A stretch of 38,091 nucleotides of DNA from Acidimicrobiia bacterium (GTDB lineage Bacteria; Actinomycetota; Acidimicrobiia; Spongiisociales; ZC4RG35). The position numbers and the translations under genes were made by a program. Of this stretch, positions 9,406-18,672 are shown one piece after another. A model generated the notes under the pieces. It searched no databases. It was not told the DNA's origin and saw nothing but the letters and a program-made list of their open reading frames with translations. The stretch is taken from NCBI GenBank assembly GCA_025928935.1, contig JAICNB010000027.1, positions 1 to 38,091 on the forward strand, written 5' to 3'. Each line of letters opens with the position of its first letter. Position 1 is the stretch's first letter.

Positions 9406-12219
9406 TCACATGTCCCGGATCCAGCCCAGGACATGTCGATATTCGGCGGCGGCACCCTCCGCGAGGAGGCGCTTCCGATCATCCTCGGGCAGACTCGATT
9501 CGAGTCTCGCCCGGGCGTCGGCCAGCGATTCCCGCGAGATGCCGATCGGGCTCCTTTCGAGATGGCCGAGGAATCGGGCCGCGCTCTCCATGTCCTCATC
9601 CTCCATCTCCAGACGAAGGGCCAAAGCGGGGAGCCCGGCATGGACCTCGCTGTCGAAGAGGAGCAAACGGTCGACGATCGTCGTCAGCTGATCCGTCGCT
9701 TCATCGATGCGGCCGGCTTCGACGAGGCTCCGGACCGATCGAGCGCCTGAACGCGTCGAACACGGCAGATCGCCCACTTCGGCCAGGATCCGTGACGCAG
9801 CGACCAGGTCGTCGACGGGAGCCTCCAGGCCCAGGTCCTGGCTGGCTGCCCCGTGGTAATACAAGGCGTGGCCCAGGCCGTGACGGGCACCCAGGTCACC
9901 GAGTATCTCGATGCTCCTCGCCAGGTTCGCCAGGACCCATTCGTCCTGACCGGTCCCGATCAGGGCGCTGGCGGTCATCATCCCCGCCGCGGCGAGGTAT
10001 CCGTCTCCGAGGCCGAGGGCTTTGCTGATCGCCTCGGTCACGTGCTCTCGGCGCTCACCCGGATCGCCGGCCTGGCCGAAGGCGAGCAGGAACTCGACCA
10101 GCGCCTCGTCCCATGCCGGGTCCCACATCGGACGGGCACGGCTGGCGGAGACCAGGTCGCGGCCTTCCTCCATCCACGACCCTGCATCCTCGAGACCGAC
10201 CAGGTTGGCATAGGTCACGCCCCGGGCCAGCGTCAACCAGCCGACCAGAGCGTCGTCCCCAGACTCCCGGGCGCGTTCCAGACCGCGGTCGGCGTATTCG
10301 GTGGCCTTCGGGTCGGTGAGGAAGGTGGCGAGCAGGGCTGCTTCGAGCCACGCCTTCGCCGCCACGGATGGTGTTGCCCGGTCCCCGTGCTCAGCCAGTG
10401 CGGCCATCAGCGTGTCCCTGCCCTCGACGTGCATGCTCGACTGGGCCCAGAACCAGGTCAGGTCGAAACAGATCTCGAGAAACGGGCCCACCTGACCCTG
10501 ATCGAGAAAGGTCGCCAGTGCCGCCCTCGTGTTGTCGGCCTCGACGAGCAGCTCCCGGTTGGCCTGTGCCTGCTCCGGCCCCCGGAGACGCGGAGCGATG
10601 GCGGCCACCCGGGATGCGAAGTATCGAGCATGCGCCATCCGTCCCTCCTCGGCCTCGCCACCTTCCACCAGACGAGTCTGGCCGTACTGCCGGATTGGCT
10701 CGAGAAGGCGAAAGCGGGAGATCCGGCCCTGCCGAGACGCCACCACCAGGGATTTGTCGACGAGTTGGTCGAGGAGGCCGATCACATCCGCGCCGTCCCC
10801 CATCTCCTCCGCAGCGGGGAGGTCGAATCCGCCGGCGAACACCGATAGCCGCCGGAAGAGCGCGGCCTCCTCGTCCGAGAGAAGGTCGTAGGACCACCCG
10901 ATGGTGTTCTCCAGAGTCCGCTGTCTCCTGACCGTGGTCTTGGAAGCCGCGGTGAGGACACGGAACGACTCGTCCAGCCGTGAGGCGAGGTCACCGATGG
11001 TCAGGGTGCGGATGCGGGCGGCAGCCAGTTCGATGCCGAGAGGGATGCCGTCGAGGCGGCGGCAGATGCGGGCGATCGATTCCAGATCCTCCGGCGTGGG
11101 ATCGAAGTCGGGTTGGATCAGCGCCGCCCGATCGACGAACAGGCGCACCGACTCCGATGATGCGAGGTCTGAGCCGGCAGAGGGCAGGCCCATCGACGGC
11201 ACCCGGAAAACGGTCTCGCCCGGCACCCCGAGCGTCTCCCGTGACGTGGCCAGGATGGAGAGGCCGGGGCTGGCTGCGAGCAGGTCGCCGGCGAGCCCGG
11301 CGGCGGCCCCGAGGACGTGCTCGCAGTTGTCCAGGATGACGAGCAGCGTCCTGCTGGCGAGGAAGGCCTTGATCACTTGGAGAAGTCCCATGCCGTCGCC
11401 GGGTCGGAGCCCCCAGATCTCGGCTATCTCGTTCACCACCAGCCCCGGGTCCGAGATGTCCGCCAGGCCCGCCATCCATATCCCGTCACGGAACATGGCC
11501 TCCAGGTCCGATGCCGCTTCGATGGCGAGACGGGTCTTCCCGGCGCCACCCACCCCGGTCAAAGTGACCAGACGAGACGAGCCGACCAGCCCCTTGACCG
11601 TGTCGAGCTCGGCCCGTCTCCCCACGAATGAGGTGAGCCGGACCGGCAGGTGGACTCGTTCGACCAGCGCGGTCCGAAGCGGATCGGTCACCTGGGGAAG
11701 GTCGGGATGGAGCAGCTCGAAGAGGTGCTCGGGGCGTTCCAGGTCTTTGAGCGAGTGGACACCCCGGTCGATCAGGGTCATCGGAGCCGTGACCCTCCCA
11801 TCCACCAACTGGGCAGTCGTGCCGGAGACCAGGACTTGGCCGGCGTTGGCGGCCGCCATGACCCGGGCCGCCCGGTTGACGTCAGGCCCGAAGTAGTCAC
11901 CGGCTCGTTCGTAGGACGTTCCGGTGTGCACCCCGATCCGCACTTTGATCTGTGGCCCCGGCCACGACTCCCTGAGCAGACCGAGTTGGGCTCGTATCGC
12001 GGCCGTCAGGGCGGCACTCGGGGTGGGGAACGCGGCGGAGAACGAGTCGCCCGCCGTGGAGAAGACGTACCCGTCCTCATCGATGATGCAGCCTTCGAGA
12101 ATCCGGTCGTGGGACGCCAGACTGGCCGCCATCCCCTCCCGGTCCGTCTCCCAGAGCCTGGTCGACCCGACGACGTCGCTGAACAGGAAAGAGACGGTCC
12201 CGCTGGGCCTGGAGCTCAC
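9406..12219 (-). CDS. Class III cyclase domain - NB-ARC ATPase - TPR-like signalling protein
   Basis: About 937 residues. An N-terminal class III nucleotidyl cyclase homology domain (1-170) keeps the metal Asp in FLFSDVVGSTRLW (near 16) and TAGDS (near 59) and the Asn/Arg pair in VNRAAR (near 116 and 120). The Lys that specifies adenine is replaced by Ser (near 55, FSTAGD). An NB-ARC/AAA-type ATPase follows, with Walker A GVGGAGKT (near 223-230), Walker B LLVILDNC (near 293-300) and ATSRE. The C-terminal 450 residues are Ala/Leu-rich helical repeats, TPR-like. There is no LuxR helix-turn-helix, unlike related LuxR/MalT regulators. GTG codons at 12222 and 12219 are both possible; 12219 fits the leaderless spacing. 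It converges with the ABC importer. Whether it makes cyclic nucleotide is open. Confidence 0.88.
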   Translation of the reverse strand: MSSRPSGTVSFLFSDVVGSTRLWETDREGMAASLASHDRILEGCIIDEDGYVFSTAGDSFSAAFPTPSAALTAAIRAQLGLLRESWPGPQIKVRIGVHTGTSYERAGDYFGPDVNRAARVMAAANAGQVLVSGTTAQLVDGRVTAPMTLIDRGVHSLKDLERPEHLFELLHPDLPQVTDPLRTALVERVHLPVRLTSFVGRRAELDTVKGLVGSSRLVTLTGVGGAGKTRLAIEAASDLEAMFRDGIWMAGLADISDPGLVVNEIAEIWGLRPGDGMGLLQVIKAFLASRTLLVILDNCEHVLGAAAGLAGDLLAASPGLSILATSRETLGVPGETVFRVPSMGLPSAGSDLASSESVRLFVDRAALIQPDFDPTPEDLESIARICRRLDGIPLGIELAAARIRTLTIGDLASRLDESFRVLTAASKTTVRRQRTLENTIGWSYDLLSDEEAALFRRLSVFAGGFDLPAAEEMGDGADVIGLLDQLVDKSLVVASRQGRISRFRLLEPIRQYGQTRLVEGGEAEEGRMAHARYFASRVAAIAPRLRGPEQAQANRELLVEADNTRAALATFLDQGQVGPFLEICFDLTWFWAQSSMHVEGRDTLMAALAEHGDRATPSVAAKAWLEAALLATFLTDPKATEYADRGLERARESGDDALVGWLTLARGVTYANLVGLEDAGSWMEEGRDLVSASRARPMWDPAWDEALVEFLLAFGQAGDPGERREHVTEAISKALGLGDGYLAAAGMMTASALIGTGQDEWVLANLARSIEILGDLGARHGLGHALYYHGAASQDLGLEAPVDDLVAASRILAEVGDLPCSTRSGARSVRSLVEAGRIDEATDQLTTIVDRLLLFDSEVHAGLPALALRLEMEDEDMESAARFLGHLERSPIGISRESLADARARLESSLPEDDRKRLLAEGAAAEYRHVLGWIRDM

Positions 12220-12225
12220 CACGAG

Positions 12226-12386: not shown

Positions 12387-12695
12387 ATGTGCTGTTTGGC
12401 CGCAATCATGGTGCTGGTGGGGCCCCGCTTGGCCATCGTCGTCTGGGGTCTGGCACAGCCGGCCCGTTGGGAACTGGCATTCTCGACCTTCGTCTGGCCA
12501 CTCCTCGGGTTCGTGTTCCTTCCCTGGACCACCCTGATGTACGTGGCGGTGTCTCCGGGAGGGGTGACCGGGTTCGACTGGTTCGGGATCGTCCTGGCCG
12601 TCGTCGCCGACATCGCCTCCTATTCGGGGAGTGCGTGGGGGAATCGAGACCGGATCAAGGCCTACAGCACTACCTATCCGCCCGTGCCCCGCTAG
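12387..12695 (+). CDS. Small conserved membrane protein, unknown function
   Basis: A 102-residue protein with three hydrophobic segments: residues 3-21 (AAIMVLVGPRLAIVVWGLA), about 30-52, and about 65-82. A polar tail ends in YPPVPR. It resembles small multi-pass proteins common in actinobacterial genomes, but I know no function. ATG 12387 is preceded by GGAGGCTCGGAG, a good ribosome-binding site. The 164 bases before it hold an inverted repeat TCACCC/GGGTGA near 12272-12288 and a TTCGGCC/GGCCGAA pair. Its stop lies at the edge of nested palindromes shared with the convergent reductase gene. Confidence 0.75.
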   Translation: MCCLAAIMVLVGPRLAIVVWGLAQPARWELAFSTFVWPLLGFVFLPWTTLMYVAVSPGGVTGFDWFGIVLAVVADIASYSGSAWGNRDRIKAYSTTYPPVPR

Positions 12696-12719: not shown

Positions 12720-13327
12720 CACTCGGCCTCCTGCAAGAGGGGTTCGCCAATCGGCGTGTAGGTGGCGATGAAAACGCCGGTGCTGGAGATCTCACCGTTC
12801 TCGAGCCTCATTCCGGCCGGCACCGTGCCCGGCCCGAAGAGATGCTTCCCCTCACCGAGCACCACCGGGAAGATGAAGAGGTTGATCTCGTCGACCAGAC
12901 CTGCCTCGAGCAAGGTCTGAATCACGCCGTGGCTGCCGTGGACCTGTAGCTCCCGCCCGGGCTGTTCCTTCAGCCTCCGGACTGCCTCGACCAGATCGCC
13001 CTCGATCGGGGACGCGTTGTCCCAGGTGAGGCCTTCAGGACGGCTGGTGGCGATGTGCTTGGGGAGATTGTTCAGAGCGGCGGCAACGACATTGTCCTGG
13101 TCGGGGAACCGGGACCAGTACGGATACATCATGTCGTAGGTAGTACGGCCGAGGAGGACGGCGTCGGCCCGGCTGAAGATGTCGTCGATCCGCCTGCCGA
13201 AGTCCTGGTCGATATGCGCCGAAACCCATCCTCCCAGCTCGAAGCCGTTGCTCAGGTCCTCGTCATGGCCGCCAGGGCCCTGCATGACACCGTCGAGCGT
13301 GACGAACGTGGTCACTGTCAGTTTCAC
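12719..13327 (-). CDS. Dihydrofolate reductase/RibD C-terminal fold family protein
   Basis: A 202-residue protein of the RibD C-terminal/DHFR-like family (YwjB/YyaP relatives). Family marks are the opening KLTVTTFVTLDGVMQGPGG, ADAVLLGRTTYDMM near the nucleotide site, LQVHGSHGVIQTLLEAGLVDE, and FPVVLGEGKHLFG. Such proteins bind NADPH and reduce unknown pterin- or flavin-like substrates; true folate reduction is not implied. The start is GTG 13327 with GAAAGGAA upstream. It is divergent from the conservon by 88 bases and converges with the small membrane protein at the nested palindromes. Confidence 0.9.
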   Translation of the reverse strand: MKLTVTTFVTLDGVMQGPGGHDEDLSNGFELGGWVSAHIDQDFGRRIDDIFSRADAVLLGRTTYDMMYPYWSRFPDQDNVVAAALNNLPKHIATSRPEGLTWDNASPIEGDLVEAVRRLKEQPGRELQVHGSHGVIQTLLEAGLVDEINLFIFPVVLGEGKHLFGPGTVPAGMRLENGEISSTGVFIATYTPIGEPLLQEAE

Positions 13328-13415
13328 GACATTTCCTTTCTCCGGCCGACACTCGGCCTACACCCTTACTACGAACAAGGGGGCCACGAAACGACAGGAC
13401 GACTTGGGAGGAGGG

Positions 13416-14870
13416 ATGACCCTGGCAGAGCAGCTCGACGATCAATCCCAGGATCCAGAGACCTCCCTGTTTATCTTTTTCGCGATGGGAGCGATGGAGG
13501 CGACGCGTGGCCGGCGTGAGCCGGCGGCCGGGCAATGGGGCATCCCCTCCAGGCTGACCCTGGCAATGGTCCCGGTGGCGGTGGTGGCCCTTCTGCTCGG
13601 GGTCTTCCTGTCCTGGTCGATGGCCCAATCGGGTGAGACAACGGCGGCCGTGACGATCGCGGTGGTGGTTGGCGCGGTGGTGACCGGGTCCCTGCTGGTC
13701 GCCTATCGCATGGGCCGGTCCTTTGGGGCCCGCATCGGCGAGGTGACGGACGCCGCCCGGCGCATGGCCCACAAGGACGTCGTCGAGCTGCTCGACGCCT
13801 TGCGCACCCCGGAGTCGACTCCGGCCTCGACCCCATCACTCGGTCTAGACACGGCTTCAGCTGACGAGATCGGTGACCTGGCACGCTCCTTCGAGATCAT
13901 GCATCGGGCCCTCGTCGAAGTCTCGGCTCGTCAGATGGAGTCGCTCAGGGTCGGCATCTCCAGCATCCTCATCACGCTGGCCCGTCGCAACAGCTCTCTG
14001 ATCGACCGGCAGCTCGCCCTCCTCGACGAGCTCGAGGCAAGGGAGGACGACCCGGAGACGCTCGGTGGCTTCTTCCAGGTCGACCATCTGGCGGCTCGGA
14101 TGCGGCGCAACGCGGAGAGCCTGCTCGTCCTGGCCGGGTCGGACTCTCCCCGGGTGTGGGCCAAGGCGACGGACATCTCCGACGTGGTGCGGGCCGCACT
14201 GAGCGAGGTCGACGAGTATCAGCGGGTCGAGTTGCTCGCTGTGGAGCCCGCCCGACTCTCCGGCGCCGCGGTGACCGACGTCGCACATCTCCTGGCCGAG
14301 CTTCTCGAGAACGCGGTCCAGTTCTCGGCGCCCACGGAGCCGGTGCGGGTCACCGGTCTCTTCGACGTGGGCGGTTATGAGCTCTCGATAACGGACCGTG
14401 GAGTCGGCATGTCGGATACGCGTCTCGCCGAGCTGAACCGCATCCTGGACAGACCTCCCGCCCTCGGGTTGTCTGTGGAGCCGACGATGGGAATCTACGT
14501 TGTGGCCAAGCTGGCCCATCGTCATGGGCTCGCCGTGCAACTCGTCCACAGTGTGCCTGGCATCACGGTCAAGGTGAAGGTCCCCAGAGACCGACTGGAG
14601 ACGGCGGAAGTCACGGAGCAGGCGGATCCATATATCGAGGTGATCGACCTGACCGAGCCCGAGATGCTCGAGCCGGTGGAGGCAGCGGGCCCGGCTGGTG
14701 TCGATGAGACCACCGAGCTCCCGATCCGCGTCCCGGGTCAGGCGTTCCAGGAAGCGGACCCCGCCCCGAGTGTCGTTGCGGGTGATGGCGGGGGCAGCCT
14801 GCGGGCCGCCCTCATCGACTATCACCGGGGACAGGCCGAAGCTGCTGAAATCGGGCTGAGCGATGTCTGA
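13416..14870 (+). CDS. cvnA: Conservon sensor-kinase-like protein CvnA, without extracellular domain
   Basis: 484 residues, first gene of a cvnABCD conservon. Two membrane segments (about 47-69 and 76-97) are separated by only some seven residues (AQSGETT), so the large periplasmic sensing domain usual in this family is missing. A HAMP-like linker follows (about 98-170), then the family's dimerisation helix with RRNSSLIDRQLALLDELE (190-207), which has no classical phosphoacceptor His, and a GHKL ATPase domain with N-box ELLENAVQFS (N299), G1 ITDRGVGM and G2 GIYVVAKLA. The tail RVPGQAF...LRAAL...RG is typical of the family. ATG 13416 has GGGAGGAGGG in front. It overlaps cvnB by 8 bases. Known conservons form a membrane complex resembling a eukaryotic G-protein-coupled system. 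Confidence 0.9.
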   Translation: MTLAEQLDDQSQDPETSLFIFFAMGAMEATRGRREPAAGQWGIPSRLTLAMVPVAVVALLLGVFLSWSMAQSGETTAAVTIAVVVGAVVTGSLLVAYRMGRSFGARIGEVTDAARRMAHKDVVELLDALRTPESTPASTPSLGLDTASADEIGDLARSFEIMHRALVEVSARQMESLRVGISSILITLARRNSSLIDRQLALLDELEAREDDPETLGGFFQVDHLAARMRRNAESLLVLAGSDSPRVWAKATDISDVVRAALSEVDEYQRVELLAVEPARLSGAAVTDVAHLLAELLENAVQFSAPTEPVRVTGLFDVGGYELSITDRGVGMSDTRLAELNRILDRPPALGLSVEPTMGIYVVAKLAHRHGLAVQLVHSVPGITVKVKVPRDRLETAEVTEQADPYIEVIDLTEPEMLEPVEAAGPAGVDETTELPIRVPGQAFQEADPAPSVVAGDGGGSLRAALIDYHRGQAEAAEIGLSDV

Positions 14871-15288
14871 GGCAGCCGCCAACCTCGACTGGCTCCTGGA
14901 ACGACTGTGCTCGACGGTCCCCGCCATCCAACAGGCGATCGTCGTGTCTTCGGATGGATTGGCCCTCGCCAAGTCAGAAGGCGTCGACCGGGAGACTGCA
15001 GAGCGTCTAGCTGCCGTGTCATCAGGGATGATCGGTCTCGCCTACGGATCCGCCGGCCGTTTCGGGGCCGGGGCGGTGTCGAATGTCATCGTCGAGATGC
15101 AGCGCGGCTGGCTCTTCATCACCGGGATCAGGCACGGTTCTCTCCTTTGCTGTCTGACCAGCAAGGAGATCGACCTGGGGGCGGTTGCGTTCGAGATGTC
15201 CATCTTCGTGCAGAGGGTGGGGGACAGCCTCACGCCGCCTGTGCGCGAGGAGCTGAAGGCGAGGCTGGTCGAGCCCGAGCCGGCATGA
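14863..15288 (+). CDS. cvnB: Conservon Roadblock/LC7 domain protein CvnB
   Basis: A 141-residue Roadblock/LC7 protein, the size expected for CvnB. The fold shows in LDWLLERLCSTVPAIQQAIVVSSDGLALA, ETAERLAAVSSGMIGLA and a VIVEMQRGWLFITGIRHGSLL strand-turn-strand. Roadblock proteins of this type are partners or GTPase-activating proteins of MglA-like GTPases, here CvnD. ATG 14863 overlaps the cvnA stop and its own stop overlaps the cvnC start as ATGA, so translation is coupled on both sides. The C-terminal 20 residues are acidic (ARLVEPEPA). Confidence 0.93.
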   Translation: MSEAAANLDWLLERLCSTVPAIQQAIVVSSDGLALAKSEGVDRETAERLAAVSSGMIGLAYGSAGRFGAGAVSNVIVEMQRGWLFITGIRHGSLLCCLTSKEIDLGAVAFEMSIFVQRVGDSLTPPVREELKARLVEPEPA

Positions 15289-15650
15289 GCGACGTAATGG
15301 CCGGCGGGCGCATCGTACGGCCCTACACCATGACAGGGGGCCGAAGTGGTGTCGGGCTCGTCCCTATCGCCTTGGAGGCATTGGTTACGGTGACTCCTGC
15401 CGGCATGAGGATGAGAGGGAGGTTCCGATGGGAGTCGGCAGAGATCCTCGCCCACAGCCGGAAAGAGACGGCCATCGTCGAGTTGGCAGCGATCCTCGAC
15501 GTGCCCGTCGGGGTGGTCAGAGTCCTCGCTGCCGACCTGCGGGATCAGGGGGCCGTCGCCATCACTGAGCCACCCGGGGCCACGGACACGGCCGATTCCG
15601 ATTACGCCGAACTACTCCACAAGGTGCTCGATGGGATCAAAGCCCTCTGA
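15285..15650 (+). CDS. cvnC: Conservon DUF742 protein CvnC
   Basis: A 121-residue DUF742 protein. The family's opening RIVRPYTMTGGRS is clear (residues 9-21), as is the winged-helix-like EILAHSRKETAIVELAAIL...VVRVLAADLRDQGAVAI. CvnC proteins are thought to bind the GTPase/Roadblock pair or DNA; the function is not settled. The start ATG 15285 overlaps the cvnB stop. The gene runs 20 bases into cvnD, whose ATG is at 15631. A longer in-frame opening upstream lies inside cvnB and is not used. Confidence 0.92.
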   Translation: MSDVMAGGRIVRPYTMTGGRSGVGLVPIALEALVTVTPAGMRMRGRFRWESAEILAHSRKETAIVELAAILDVPVGVVRVLAADLRDQGAVAITEPPGATDTADSDYAELLHKVLDGIKAL

Positions 15651-16218
15651 CCGCACCGGGCTGACCCCGGTCAAGATCGTGGTTGCCGGCGGCTTCGGGG
15701 TCGGCAAGACGACCTTCGTCGGGGCCATATCCGAGATCGAGCCACTGCGTAGCGAAGCGATCATCACTGATGCCAGCTTGGGCGTGGATGAGATCGTGGC
15801 GGACGGGACCAAGACCGAGACGACGGTGGCGATGGACTTCGGTCGGATCAGCCTCAAGCACCATCTCGTCCTCTATCTGTTCGGCACCCCGGGGCAGGAC
15901 CGTTTCCATTTCATGTGGGACGAGCTCGCTCGAGGCGCGATCGGTGCCGTCGTTCTGGTCGACACCCGCCGCATCGAGGCTTGTTTCGCTGCCGTCGATT
16001 TCTTCGAGAAACGTGGCACCCCGTTCGTCGTCGCCATCAACACCTTCCATGGTCGTCGGGTCCACGACCCTGAGCTGGTCCGAGAGGCACTGCGGATCGC
16101 CCCGGAAGTCCCCATAGTCCACTGCGATGCCCGGGTGCGGGTCGATGTGCAGAAGGTGCTGGTGGCCGTGGTCGAACACTCTCTCGAGCGTGTGATGAGC
16201 GAGGCTGCGGCCAGCTAG
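15631..16218 (+). CDS. cvnD: Conservon small GTPase CvnD
   Basis: A 195-residue GTPase of the conservon ATP/GTP-binding family. The P-loop GGFGVGKTT is at residues 20-28, the switch I region follows with the family's TTVAMDFGRI, and FGTPGQDRF (84-92) is the switch II motif. NTFHG replaces the usual NKxD base-recognition motif, which is normal for CvnD. It should cycle between GDP and GTP under control of CvnB and CvnA. It is last in the coupled operon, starting inside cvnC, and converges with the histidine-kinase-like gene, stops 11 bases apart. Confidence 0.94.
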   Translation: MGSKPSDRTGLTPVKIVVAGGFGVGKTTFVGAISEIEPLRSEAIITDASLGVDEIVADGTKTETTVAMDFGRISLKHHLVLYLFGTPGQDRFHFMWDELARGAIGAVVLVDTRRIEACFAAVDFFEKRGTPFVVAINTFHGRRVHDPELVREALRIAPEVPIVHCDARVRVDVQKVLVAVVEHSLERVMSEAAAS

Positions 16219-16229
16219 ACGTGAGTCCG

Positions 16230-17822
16230 TCAGGCCGGGATCCTCATCGCCTCCGGCTCGACGTTGGAAGCCAGATCCAACCGCACCGGCTCGGCAGGGA
16301 GGCGCAGCTCGAAGACATTGCGGCCGTCGCCGGTGCGTCGATAGGTGATCTCACCGTCCATTTGGCGGGCCAGCCGCCGGGCAACGGTGAGGCTCAGGCC
16401 CACTGCCGCAGGGCGGGTCGGTTCCGAACCGCTGCGAAGATCGGCCTCGAACATCCGGTCCCGCTCAGGGACCGGGACAGCCGGACCGTCGTCGATCACA
16501 GAGACGACCGTGTCCGGGCCCGATCCAGACACCTCCAGGCTCACCACGCGGCCGCCATAGTGGACGGCGTTCGTCACGAGGGTGGCCAGGATCCTCAAAG
16601 TGAGCCCGGGGTCGGCCCAAAATCGCTCGGCACCAACCGCGATAATGACTTCCCCGGCATTGGGCAGCTGGGCGAGGACCTCCCGGCACACCAGCTCGGC
16701 GTCGATGGAGCGATTCACAACGGGCGCAGACCCGGCCCCGGCCGACATGATCAGGTCATCCACGATGGATGCGACCCGCCTCGCTTCGTCGTCGACGTGT
16801 CGCACGATCCGGTTCAGGTCGATCGGGTCTCCGGCGGCCGCGGTGGTCAAATCCAGGATGGAGCGAATCGGCTCCTTGATGTCTGCCGCAATGGCGGCGA
16901 CGAAATCGTCCCTCCCTGCCAGCTCTGTCTGAAGACGGGCCTGCTCTCGATGGCCGGCGTCGCCGTCCATGAGTTGGAACAGGATCATGGCCGGGCGGTT
17001 GGGGGCGGCCCGGGTGAACGAGAGGGAGGCCATACCCCAGATGGCCCGCCCATCAGCGGTGCGGAAGCGCAACCAGCTCTCGGCGACCCTCGTCTCGGTC
17101 TGGCCCATGTCCTCCCAAAGTTGGCCGAGCATTTCGAGATCGTCGGCATGGATCACGCTTCGAACATTCGCCCCGTCCACCGGTCCGAGCATCCGGGTGA
17201 GTGCTTCGTTGGCGAGGATGAAGTCACCGGAAGGGGTGAGGGCTCCCATCCCGATCGACGACCGCTCGAAGCCGACGCGAAACAAGTTCCCGGCGGCCTC
17301 CCTGCGAGTCTCGACCCTTCGGTCGAGCCGCCAGCCTGCGATGAGGAGGAGCACCAGGACCGCATCCAGGGTCACGGCCACGATGGGCAGGGGCATGTCG
17401 ATCACGCCGGCCCGGAAGATGATCGATTCCCGATAGAGGGAGAGGAGTGCGAAGACGTGGAAGGCGATTACGTACACGAGCCCGACCACGAGCAGTCGGG
17501 TCTCCCGATAGAACGAGATGGCGACGAGGGCGAGGAAGAAGGCGATGAACGATTCAGGGGAGCCTTCGAGGTGTCTCACCAGGATCCCCGCAGTCGTGAC
17601 CAGCCCCAGTGAGACTGCTCCGGCTCCGACCAGGCGACTCCTGGCCGCCAACCCGGCCACCGCCGTGACCAGCACTATCAGCGTTCCCGCGACCACCTCG
17701 GAGATAGGCACGCCACGAGCCAGGCCGACCAATGCGAGCGCGGGGACCTGGGCCAGCAACAAGACGAGAAGGAAACGATGCCGGGTGGCGAAGATCCTCG
17801 GGTCGGTCTGGTCCCGTCTCAT
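16230..17822 (-). CDS. Membrane PAS histidine-kinase-like protein with Ala at the phosphoacceptor
   Basis: 530 residues. About six membrane segments fill residues 16-163, then a PAS domain (about 176-290, with FERSSIGMGALTPSGDFILA), a DHp-like helix and a GHKL ATPase domain. The H-box reads FVAAIAADIKEPI (307-319) where kinases have a His in SHELRTPL; the aligned residue is Ala313. The N-box LVTNAVHYGG (N418) and G2 AVGLSLTVARRLA are kept, while G1 is IDDGPAVP. It should bind ATP weakly or not at all and cannot autophosphorylate at the normal site. ATG 17822 is chosen because GGAGAG lies just upstream; ATG 17867 has no such site. It converges with cvnD and diverges from the CvnA-like orphan domain. 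Confidence 0.87.
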   Translation of the reverse strand: MRRDQTDPRIFATRHRFLLVLLLAQVPALALVGLARGVPISEVVAGTLIVLVTAVAGLAARSRLVGAGAVSLGLVTTAGILVRHLEGSPESFIAFFLALVAISFYRETRLLVVGLVYVIAFHVFALLSLYRESIIFRAGVIDMPLPIVAVTLDAVLVLLLIAGWRLDRRVETRREAAGNLFRVGFERSSIGMGALTPSGDFILANEALTRMLGPVDGANVRSVIHADDLEMLGQLWEDMGQTETRVAESWLRFRTADGRAIWGMASLSFTRAAPNRPAMILFQLMDGDAGHREQARLQTELAGRDDFVAAIAADIKEPIRSILDLTTAAAGDPIDLNRIVRHVDDEARRVASIVDDLIMSAGAGSAPVVNRSIDAELVCREVLAQLPNAGEVIIAVGAERFWADPGLTLRILATLVTNAVHYGGRVVSLEVSGSGPDTVVSVIDDGPAVPVPERDRMFEADLRSGSEPTRPAAVGLSLTVARRLARQMDGEITYRRTGDGRNVFELRLPAEPVRLDLASNVEPEAMRIPA

Positions 17823-17936
17823 GGAGGCTCTCCTCTTCCCCGGAAAGAGTCTGCGACGCCTCGGCATGCAGACACAGTATCTCCGCGAGCCTTCCGAGCC
17901 CGGTAGCAGTCCTTGGTCGCGGGGTGGCGCTGGGAG

Positions 17937-17942
17937 TACCGT
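17937..17942 (+). promoter_or_regulatory. Leaderless promoter of the CvnA-like orphan gene
   Basis: TACCGT lies 7 bases before ATG 17950, and TTGGTC (17913-17918) lies 18 bases further upstream. No Shine-Dalgarno is present. Confidence 0.5.
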
Positions 17943-17949
17943 TTCGGTC

Positions 17950-18672
17950 ATGCAGATCCACGATCTGGTCGAGATGGCTCTGGCCAATGTCGACGACCGA
18001 ATGGTGGAGCCGACAGCCGTGGAGCCCGCCGAGCTCTCTCCATATGCGGTGCCTGGCCTGGCGCAGATCCTCTCAGAGCTCGTGGGTGCGATCGGCGCAG
18101 CCAGTGCGTGCCGGATCGCCGCGTCATGGGAGGACGACAACTACTTGATCACCACGTCATGGAGCGGGCCCGAGATGGCCATCGACGTGCTCGACCGAAT
18201 GCTTCAGGACGTCGAATTGCCGGTGGCCATTGCGTCTGTGGCCCGCCTCGCCAGGAGTCGAGGGATCCGGGTGCGCTTCGTCCCAGGTCCCGATGCGGTG
18301 ACTGCTCAGATCGAGGTGCCAAGCTCGATCGTCGTTCGGCCCAATCCGGCAGATGTCTCTCAACTGGTGACTCGGGATGAAGTCCCGTTCATCCCGCACG
18401 AGCTGGAGCGACGGGTTCCGGTCCCGGCCGGATCCTCGCTGGATGAGAGCGAGTCCTTCCTGGAGCGTGTCTTCGCACCGTTGCGTCGCTCCCGGGCCAT
18501 TTCATCCGACTCGAGTGAAGGCGTGGTTCTGCAGGTGCGGGTACCGGGGGAGAGGTTCACCGATGTCGAAGACGACTCACCGAGCACGGTGGCGGCCGAG
18601 GCGGCGGTCGAGATCAGATCGGCCCTGTCAACCTTCGATCGGGGCCGGCGTTCGGCAGAACTCGCCGGCTGA
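17950..18672 (+). CDS. Free-standing degenerate CvnA ATPase domain with CvnA tail
   Basis: 240 residues that align with the ATPase half of the nearby CvnA. VEPAELSPYAVPGLAQILSE (24-43) matches CvnA VEPARLSGAAVTDVAHLLAE. LPVAIASVARLARSRGIRV matches its G2 helix, and RVPGERF...PSTV...IRSALSTFDRG (197-232) matches its tail RVPGQAF...PSVV...LRAALIDYHRG. The N-box residues ENA are GAI, and the G1 and G2 glycines are gone, so ATP binding is unlikely. There are no membrane segments and no dimerisation helix. I therefore read it as a pseudo-ATPase adaptor that may compete with CvnA for CvnB/C/D. It is leaderless, divergent from the His-less kinase gene, and may be a diverged duplicate of cvnA. Confidence 0.8.
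   Translation: MQIHDLVEMALANVDDRMVEPTAVEPAELSPYAVPGLAQILSELVGAIGAASACRIAASWEDDNYLITTSWSGPEMAIDVLDRMLQDVELPVAIASVARLARSRGIRVRFVPGPDAVTAQIEVPSSIVVRPNPADVSQLVTRDEVPFIPHELERRVPVPAGSSLDESESFLERVFAPLRRSRAISSDSSEGVVLQVRVPGERFTDVEDDSPSTVAAEAAVEIRSALSTFDRGRRSAELAG

Follow-up and report, generated by a model that had tools for sequence, protein, structure and literature searches.

A complete cvnABCD conservon from an Acidimicrobiia genome lies beside two kinase-derived genes, here named K and X, and this arrangement is kept in all three genomes of the genus, where CvnA itself has no extracytoplasmic sensor domain. The main new observation is an inversion of conservation between X and CvnA: in X, a free-standing relative of the CvnA catalytic domain, the C-terminal tail is 71% identical and the core about 32%, whereas in CvnA the tail is 57% and the CA core 85% identical. 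Judged from sequence, K and X probably supply the input that is missing from the sensor-less CvnA. Our leading reading, to which we give slightly less than an even chance, is a single conservon with a lineage-specific input module, in which K would be a pseudokinase sensor and X a trans-acting CvnA tail or decoy. The components K and X beside a conservon are new, while the conservon itself is known, and our literature search found no description of either protein.

Layout of the locus

The window (38,091 nucleotides, the whole stretch of DNA that was analysed) is one contig, C7, of an Acidimicrobiia MAG, G000; G122 and G123 are the other two genomes of the same genus. A preliminary description of this DNA had reported a complete, overlapping cvnA-cvnB-cvnC-cvnD operon next to a membrane PAS kinase-like gene without the phospho-acceptor histidine and a soluble CvnA-like gene with its N-box erased. 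All of this was borne out: the cvn frames share 8, 4 and 20 bases and carry the expected Pfam domains, alanine replaces the histidine of K in all three orthologs, and glycine replaces the N-box asparagine of X in all three as well. The six genes are real and lie where they had been placed, except that the start of cvnA is more likely at 13485, with the conserved N-terminus MGAMEA, than at 13416; the ATG at 13485 is the best start since the G122 frame has neither ATG nor GTG upstream of it and since a TANNNT box precedes this ATG by 7 nt in every one of the three genomes (Table 1).

The six genes do not form one operon. K runs on the minus strand, its 3' end facing that of cvnD and its 5' end that of X, and the lack of co-transcription of K and X with cvnABCD counts against our leading reading. 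In an alignment of the three genomes TANNNT boxes are conserved in front of cvnA (TATCTT/TATCGT/TAACGT, at an equal distance of 7 nt from the ATG) and, facing away from each other, in front of K and X. The positions of these boxes suggest leaderless promoters for cvnA, K and X, those of K and X forming a divergent pair; a scan for consensus promoters and terminators detected none.

Table 1 Features of the conservon locus and of the genes K and X in the window.
Feature	Coordinates	Strand	Description
TANNNT -10-like box TATCTT	13472..13477	+	7 nt before cvnA ATG
cvnA	13485..14870	+	Membrane HK-like; 2 TM with ~11-aa loop; HAMP and HATPase (Pfam); DHp with conserved His; C-terminal LPxR tail
cvnB	14863..15288	+	Roadblock/LC7 (MglB-like); Pfam PF03259, E 7.6e-17; sole Robl_LC7 gene in genome
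cvnC	15285..15650	+	DUF742; Pfam PF05331, E 1.1e-24
cvnD	15631..16218	+	MglA-type small GTPase; Pfam GTPase matches; P-loop GGFGVGKT, FGTPGQDRF
K	16230..17867	-	545 aa; several TM helices, PAS, DHp, HATPase (Pfam E 4e-14)
K/X divergent intergenic region	17868..17949	.	82 bp; conserved TANNNT boxes (three-genome alignment)
K box TACTGT	17879-17874	-	6 nt before K ATG; kept in 3/3 genomes
X box TACCGT	17937-17942	+	7 nt before X ATG; kept in 3/3 genomes
X	17950..18672	+	240 aa; CvnA catalytic-domain paralog, ATP-binding motifs lost
X tail, residues 186-240	18505..18669	+	CvnA-type LxxR; VVLQVRVPGERF ... EIRSALSTFDRGRRSAELAG; best-conserved part of X

The conservon is the only one in G000, where Robl_LC7 and DUF742 are each represented by one gene, and its make-up is canonical, with an HK-like CvnA, a Roadblock CvnB, a DUF742 CvnC and a GTPase CvnD in synteny. 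CvnD is 68-90% identical to CvnD of relatives, and CvnB has the PDB relatives Rv3364c (9hef) and CvnB5 (3leq); PDB sequence searches with CvnA and with CvnD gave no match. The LPxR motif of CvnA is found as ELPIRVPG at residues 434-441 in the numbering of one CvnA translation.

Loss of the CvnA sensor domain

TM analysis of CvnA from the genus gave two TM segments with a loop of only 10-11 aa between them and no extracytoplasmic sensor domain, while the extracytoplasmic loop of CvnA is 239-283 aa long in the family's six further genomes with a conservon, two of which have NIT matches (one above the Pfam cut-off). Previously, the accessory genes CvnE and CvnF have been found to accompany sensor-less CvnA (PMC13343842), and a CvnA of that kind is what we find at this locus. 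K and X coincide with the sensor loss in this family, which is suggestive, as one event and not as a correlation. A general rule that a sensor-less CvnA has K or X was rejected, as both genes are missing from some seven sensor-less CvnA elsewhere in the class, which also counts against our leading reading. The suggestion in the preliminary description that sensing had been moved to separate modules fits the absence of a sensor domain from the CvnA of the genus, but the pair of separate genes is found in this one genus only.

K, a membrane PAS kinase-like protein

K has the architecture of a histidine kinase with His changed to Ala in 3/3 orthologs, and is a candidate pseudokinase. Its H-box reads FVAAIAADIKEP in the window (FVAAIAAD, without the phospho-acceptor His) and FVAAIAADIREP and FVAAIAEDLRVP in the other two orthologs, while four aligned relatives outside the genus retain SVSHE(L/I)RTPL. 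In the nucleotide-binding part all three K share the N-box Asn N433, the G1 Asp D459 and an unchanged VGLSLTV segment, and the CA domain is the best-conserved long part of the protein (68-73%), with the second Gly of G1 changed to Ala in two of the three and G2 changed from GLGL to GLSL (second Gly to Ser). Both modules had been called catalytically dead. The evidence for this is good in the case of X, whereas in K the histidine alone is surely lost and ATP binding is possible.

Orthologs of K, 65% and 59% identical to it, occur in the genus only; after them, the best-matching proteins of the order are ordinary kinases with about 30% identity. A heterodimer between K and CvnA is not obvious because the DHp of K is HisKA-like, unlike that of CvnA (K versus CvnA, E 0.027), a further point against our leading reading. 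The structure model of K was of low confidence (pLDDT 67, pTM 0.35) and served for secondary structure only.

X, a free-standing CvnA-like protein

A Pfam scan of X gave no match, and the Pfam domains of the known accessories, GAF (CvnF) and P450 (CvnE), were found in neither K nor X. Compared directly with CvnA of the same locus, X is 30% identical over 250 aa (E 1e-13), with homology to both the catalytic domain and the tail. It begins at the CA domain, and the TM segments, HAMP, DHp and functional ATP-binding motifs are all missing: the G1 Asp is changed to Trp, Trp and Thr in the three orthologs and the ATP lid/G2 segment is deleted. The two orthologs, again confined to the genus, are 78% and 42% identical to X of the window. 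In a phylogenetic tree X falls on a long branch within the CvnA clade of the family (starred sets 99/98 and 96/96), nearest to CvnA of the genus with weak support (80/57). X is thus likely, though not proven, to derive from a duplication of the local cvnA. In the predicted structure confidence is high for an HK CA-type core (residues 1-130) and for a C-terminal helix at residues 213-239 (pLDDT about 93), with a disordered middle between the two, and a comparison with solved folds gave ChpT as the top PDB match (E 6.7e-7), followed by HK CA domains.

The tail of X is 93% and 71% identical to those of the two orthologs, and the segments 1-60, 61-125, 126-185 and 186-240 of X from the window are 43, 22, 37 and 71% identical to the G123 ortholog. 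When the three X were aligned with 24 CvnA, the only invariant columns were E43, L194 and R197 in X numbering, and L194 and R197 occupy the positions of the CvnA LPxR motif. The proline of the motif is replaced in X (LQVR/LKVR), and its loss counts against our leading reading. The LPxR motif has been described for CvnA in a study whose authors cautiously proposed that its arginine might contact the GTPase (PMC4316618). In an S. griseus mutant aerial growth was restored by a fragment of CvnA, as cited in PMC8510531, a precedent for an active free piece of CvnA. Neither the LxxR tail retained by X nor the missing extracytoplasmic sensor domain of CvnA was part of the preliminary description.

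Linkage, selection and distribution

The order A-B-C-D, reversed K, X is kept in G000, G122 and G123. G122 is collinear with the window over at least 19 kb, while the block shared with G123 corresponds to window positions 12824-17887 and 18388-18650 and comprises a RibD-like gene, cvnABCD, K and X; most of the flanking synteny outside this block is broken in G123, with one small gene moved to the opposite side. The dN/dS ratios, calculated by the Nei-Gojobori method with some dS values near saturation, lie between 0.29 and 0.32 for K and between 0.27 and 0.29 for X, compared with 0.13-0.19 for CvnA, values that indicate purifying selection on K and X. Since three genomes, a conserved order and purifying selection come together, the grouping of the six genes is more than chance.

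It had been proposed to check whether the two extra genes co-occur with conservons in other genomes, and they do so in 3/3 genomes of the genus and beside none of the other conservons examined; the outcome named as refuting, a lack of co-occurrence in related genomes, did not arise. A search of 138 genomes of the order found orthologs of K and a free X in these three alone. A profile of X recognised no free X outside the genus in 395 genomes of the class and 376 of the phylum, where the clear matches were full CvnA, leaving aside a handful of marginal hits with E above 1e-4, and where a protein evolving this fast could escape recognition. The neighbourhoods of 60 other conservons of the class (868 kb) contain no X, no K and no other HK-like gene detectable by HMM or by H-box pattern (positive control 7/7); a search of these neighbourhoods for free CvnA tails turned up split copies of CvnA or pieces of it cut off by the end of a contig, all remaining matches being at chance level. 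A scan of genome contigs with X gave nothing beyond the two known relatives, and a scan of viral contigs with K gave no relatives. The occurrence of K and X beside a conservon is phylogenetically one event in one genus, which counts against our leading reading.

Proposed mechanism and alternative explanations

We propose that CvnA may have lost its extracytoplasmic sensor in the ancestor of the genus and that K, a putative former PAS histidine kinase minus its phospho-acceptor His, would be the replacement membrane/PAS sensor, acting through protein contact and not through phosphotransfer, as RocA does on CovS. X would be a duplicated CvnA ATPase domain with its tail, in which ATP use was lost and the LxxR tail retained. 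As a soluble stand-in for CvnA it could bind the partner of the tail (CvnB and/or CvnD), with the tail as a putative docking element, and would thereby compete with CvnA, or pass on the state of K, to the GTPase cycle of CvnB, CvnC and CvnD. The arrangement suggests that a sensor-less CvnA of this basal class can gain separate input proteins whose components are unrelated to CvnE and CvnF.

In a narrower form of the proposal, which we regard as rather unlikely, X would be a CvnA tail acting in trans, a dead ATPase fold preserved solely so as to present LxxR to CvnB/CvnD and gated by the membrane pseudokinase. If true, this would constitute a route from a kinase fold to a GTPase without phosphotransfer, and the CvnA tail would be the missing output element of conservons; we know of no conservon in which the route of the CvnA signal to the CvnB/C/D GTPase switch is established. 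The apparent detachment of the CvnA catalytic domain and tail, with the ATPase discarded and the tail kept, points to the tail as what matters, and X is a small protein open to direct testing.

Which of the two proteins belongs to the conservon can be questioned. X alone could be a negative regulator, a decoy of CvnA or of CvnB/D, with K an unrelated gene that happens to share the divergent promoter region, and it is indeed X, not K, that is a CvnA paralog with a CvnA tail, while K is on the opposite strand and its own relatives are ordinary kinases. We nevertheless find this doubtful, as K retains its place in the rearranged G123, the conserved 82-bp divergent region is common to K and X, and none of the 60 class conservons (868 kb) has another HK-like gene nearby. 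It is also conceivable that adjacency reflects descent only, with K and X unconnected in a young genus that has undergone little rearrangement. The data comprise three species only, and the collinearity of G122 is what such descent would give; the explanation is nonetheless improbable, since G123 has lost most other local synteny yet retains exactly this block, and since selection has kept the CvnA tail in X, a likely duplicate of CvnA.

The catalytic status of the two proteins leaves room for two further explanations. K might not be dead, its HATPase domain binding ATP and phosphorylating CvnA or another protein in trans, as a split or trans-acting kinase would. Such activity would agree with the invariant N433, D459 and VGLSLTV, with the well-conserved CA domain and with the conserved DHp His present in CvnA, but the H-box is degenerate throughout, G1 (in two of three) and G2 have each lost their second Gly, and no gene with a receiver domain was seen beside K, and we hold it to be quite improbable. 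At the other extreme X, and perhaps K, could be a decaying pseudogene, as its rapid divergence (42% identity within the genus) and lost catalytic motifs might suggest. This we reject as highly improbable on the grounds of dN/dS (0.27-0.32) and tail conservation (71-93%): with dS reaching 1.9, all three species still have intact frames, and the start-proximal boxes are conserved.

Comparison with known systems

The locus shares with the conservons of S. coelicolor (Cvn1-13) and Mycobacterium (Mfp) a complete cvnABCD with canonical order, overlaps and domains, and differs from them by the two extra kinase-derived genes, neither of which is a P450 (CvnE), GAF (CvnF) or pentapeptide (MfpA) gene. 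In the Mfp system MfpD is reported to be a GAP and MfpC a GEF on MfpB (PMC13343842). CvnF8 binds and stimulates CvnA8 (PMC13343842), and the setting here is the same as for CvnF8, with a CvnA devoid of an extracytoplasmic sensor and a proposed modulator of input. However, the gene for CvnF, a soluble protein of the GAF type, directly follows cvnD, whereas the putative pseudokinase K is a membrane PAS protein encoded on the opposite strand and X is derived from CvnA; furthermore, the reported CvnE and CvnF genes are confined to large-genome clades.

Pseudokinase HKs that act via a partner are known from RocA-CovS (PMC7028121) and ChrS-HrrS (PMC9491836). The role proposed for K resembles that of RocA, DivL and ChrS, HK-like proteins that act on a signalling partner without phosphotransfer of their own, but these three act in two-component systems, whereas the neighbour here is a small-GTPase system without a response regulator. 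The X model resembles degenerate HK domains of the ChpT type in its HK CA fold; it differs from them in that a DHp helix bundle is absent and the CvnA tail takes its place.

Neighbouring genes

Upstream of cvnA and divergent from it, each of the three genomes has a gene for a RibD C-terminal domain (reductase-like) protein, at 12722-13327 (-) in the window. This gene belongs to the conserved block, and its product might be a target or partner. A predicted membrane protein of about 100 aa without Pfam match is encoded at 12387-12695 (+), upstream of cvnA, in the window and likewise in G122; in G123 its gene is found downstream of X (L043:14001-14306), relocated and still beside the locus. Also near the conservon, a gene at 9406-12222 (-) encodes a protein of 938 aa that begins with an adenylate/guanylate cyclase domain and has an ATPase-like region behind it.

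Around the 60 other class conservons (L085-L144, 868 kb) there is no protein with a classical HK H-box, fewer than one would expect by chance, and conservons may lie away from two-component genes. The sensor-less CvnA conservons L125, L118, L101 and L100, from several families of the class, are found beside genes resembling glutamate synthase subunits, and three of the four also have an SDR gene beside them (gene identities assigned by eye), which is perhaps a separate conserved linkage. Divergent from the sensor-less cvnA of L100, a gene at L100:11578-12252 (+) appears by eye to be DUF4388/PATAN-like, with no Pfam match; domains of the DUF4388/PATAN type are known near other MglA/MglB systems.
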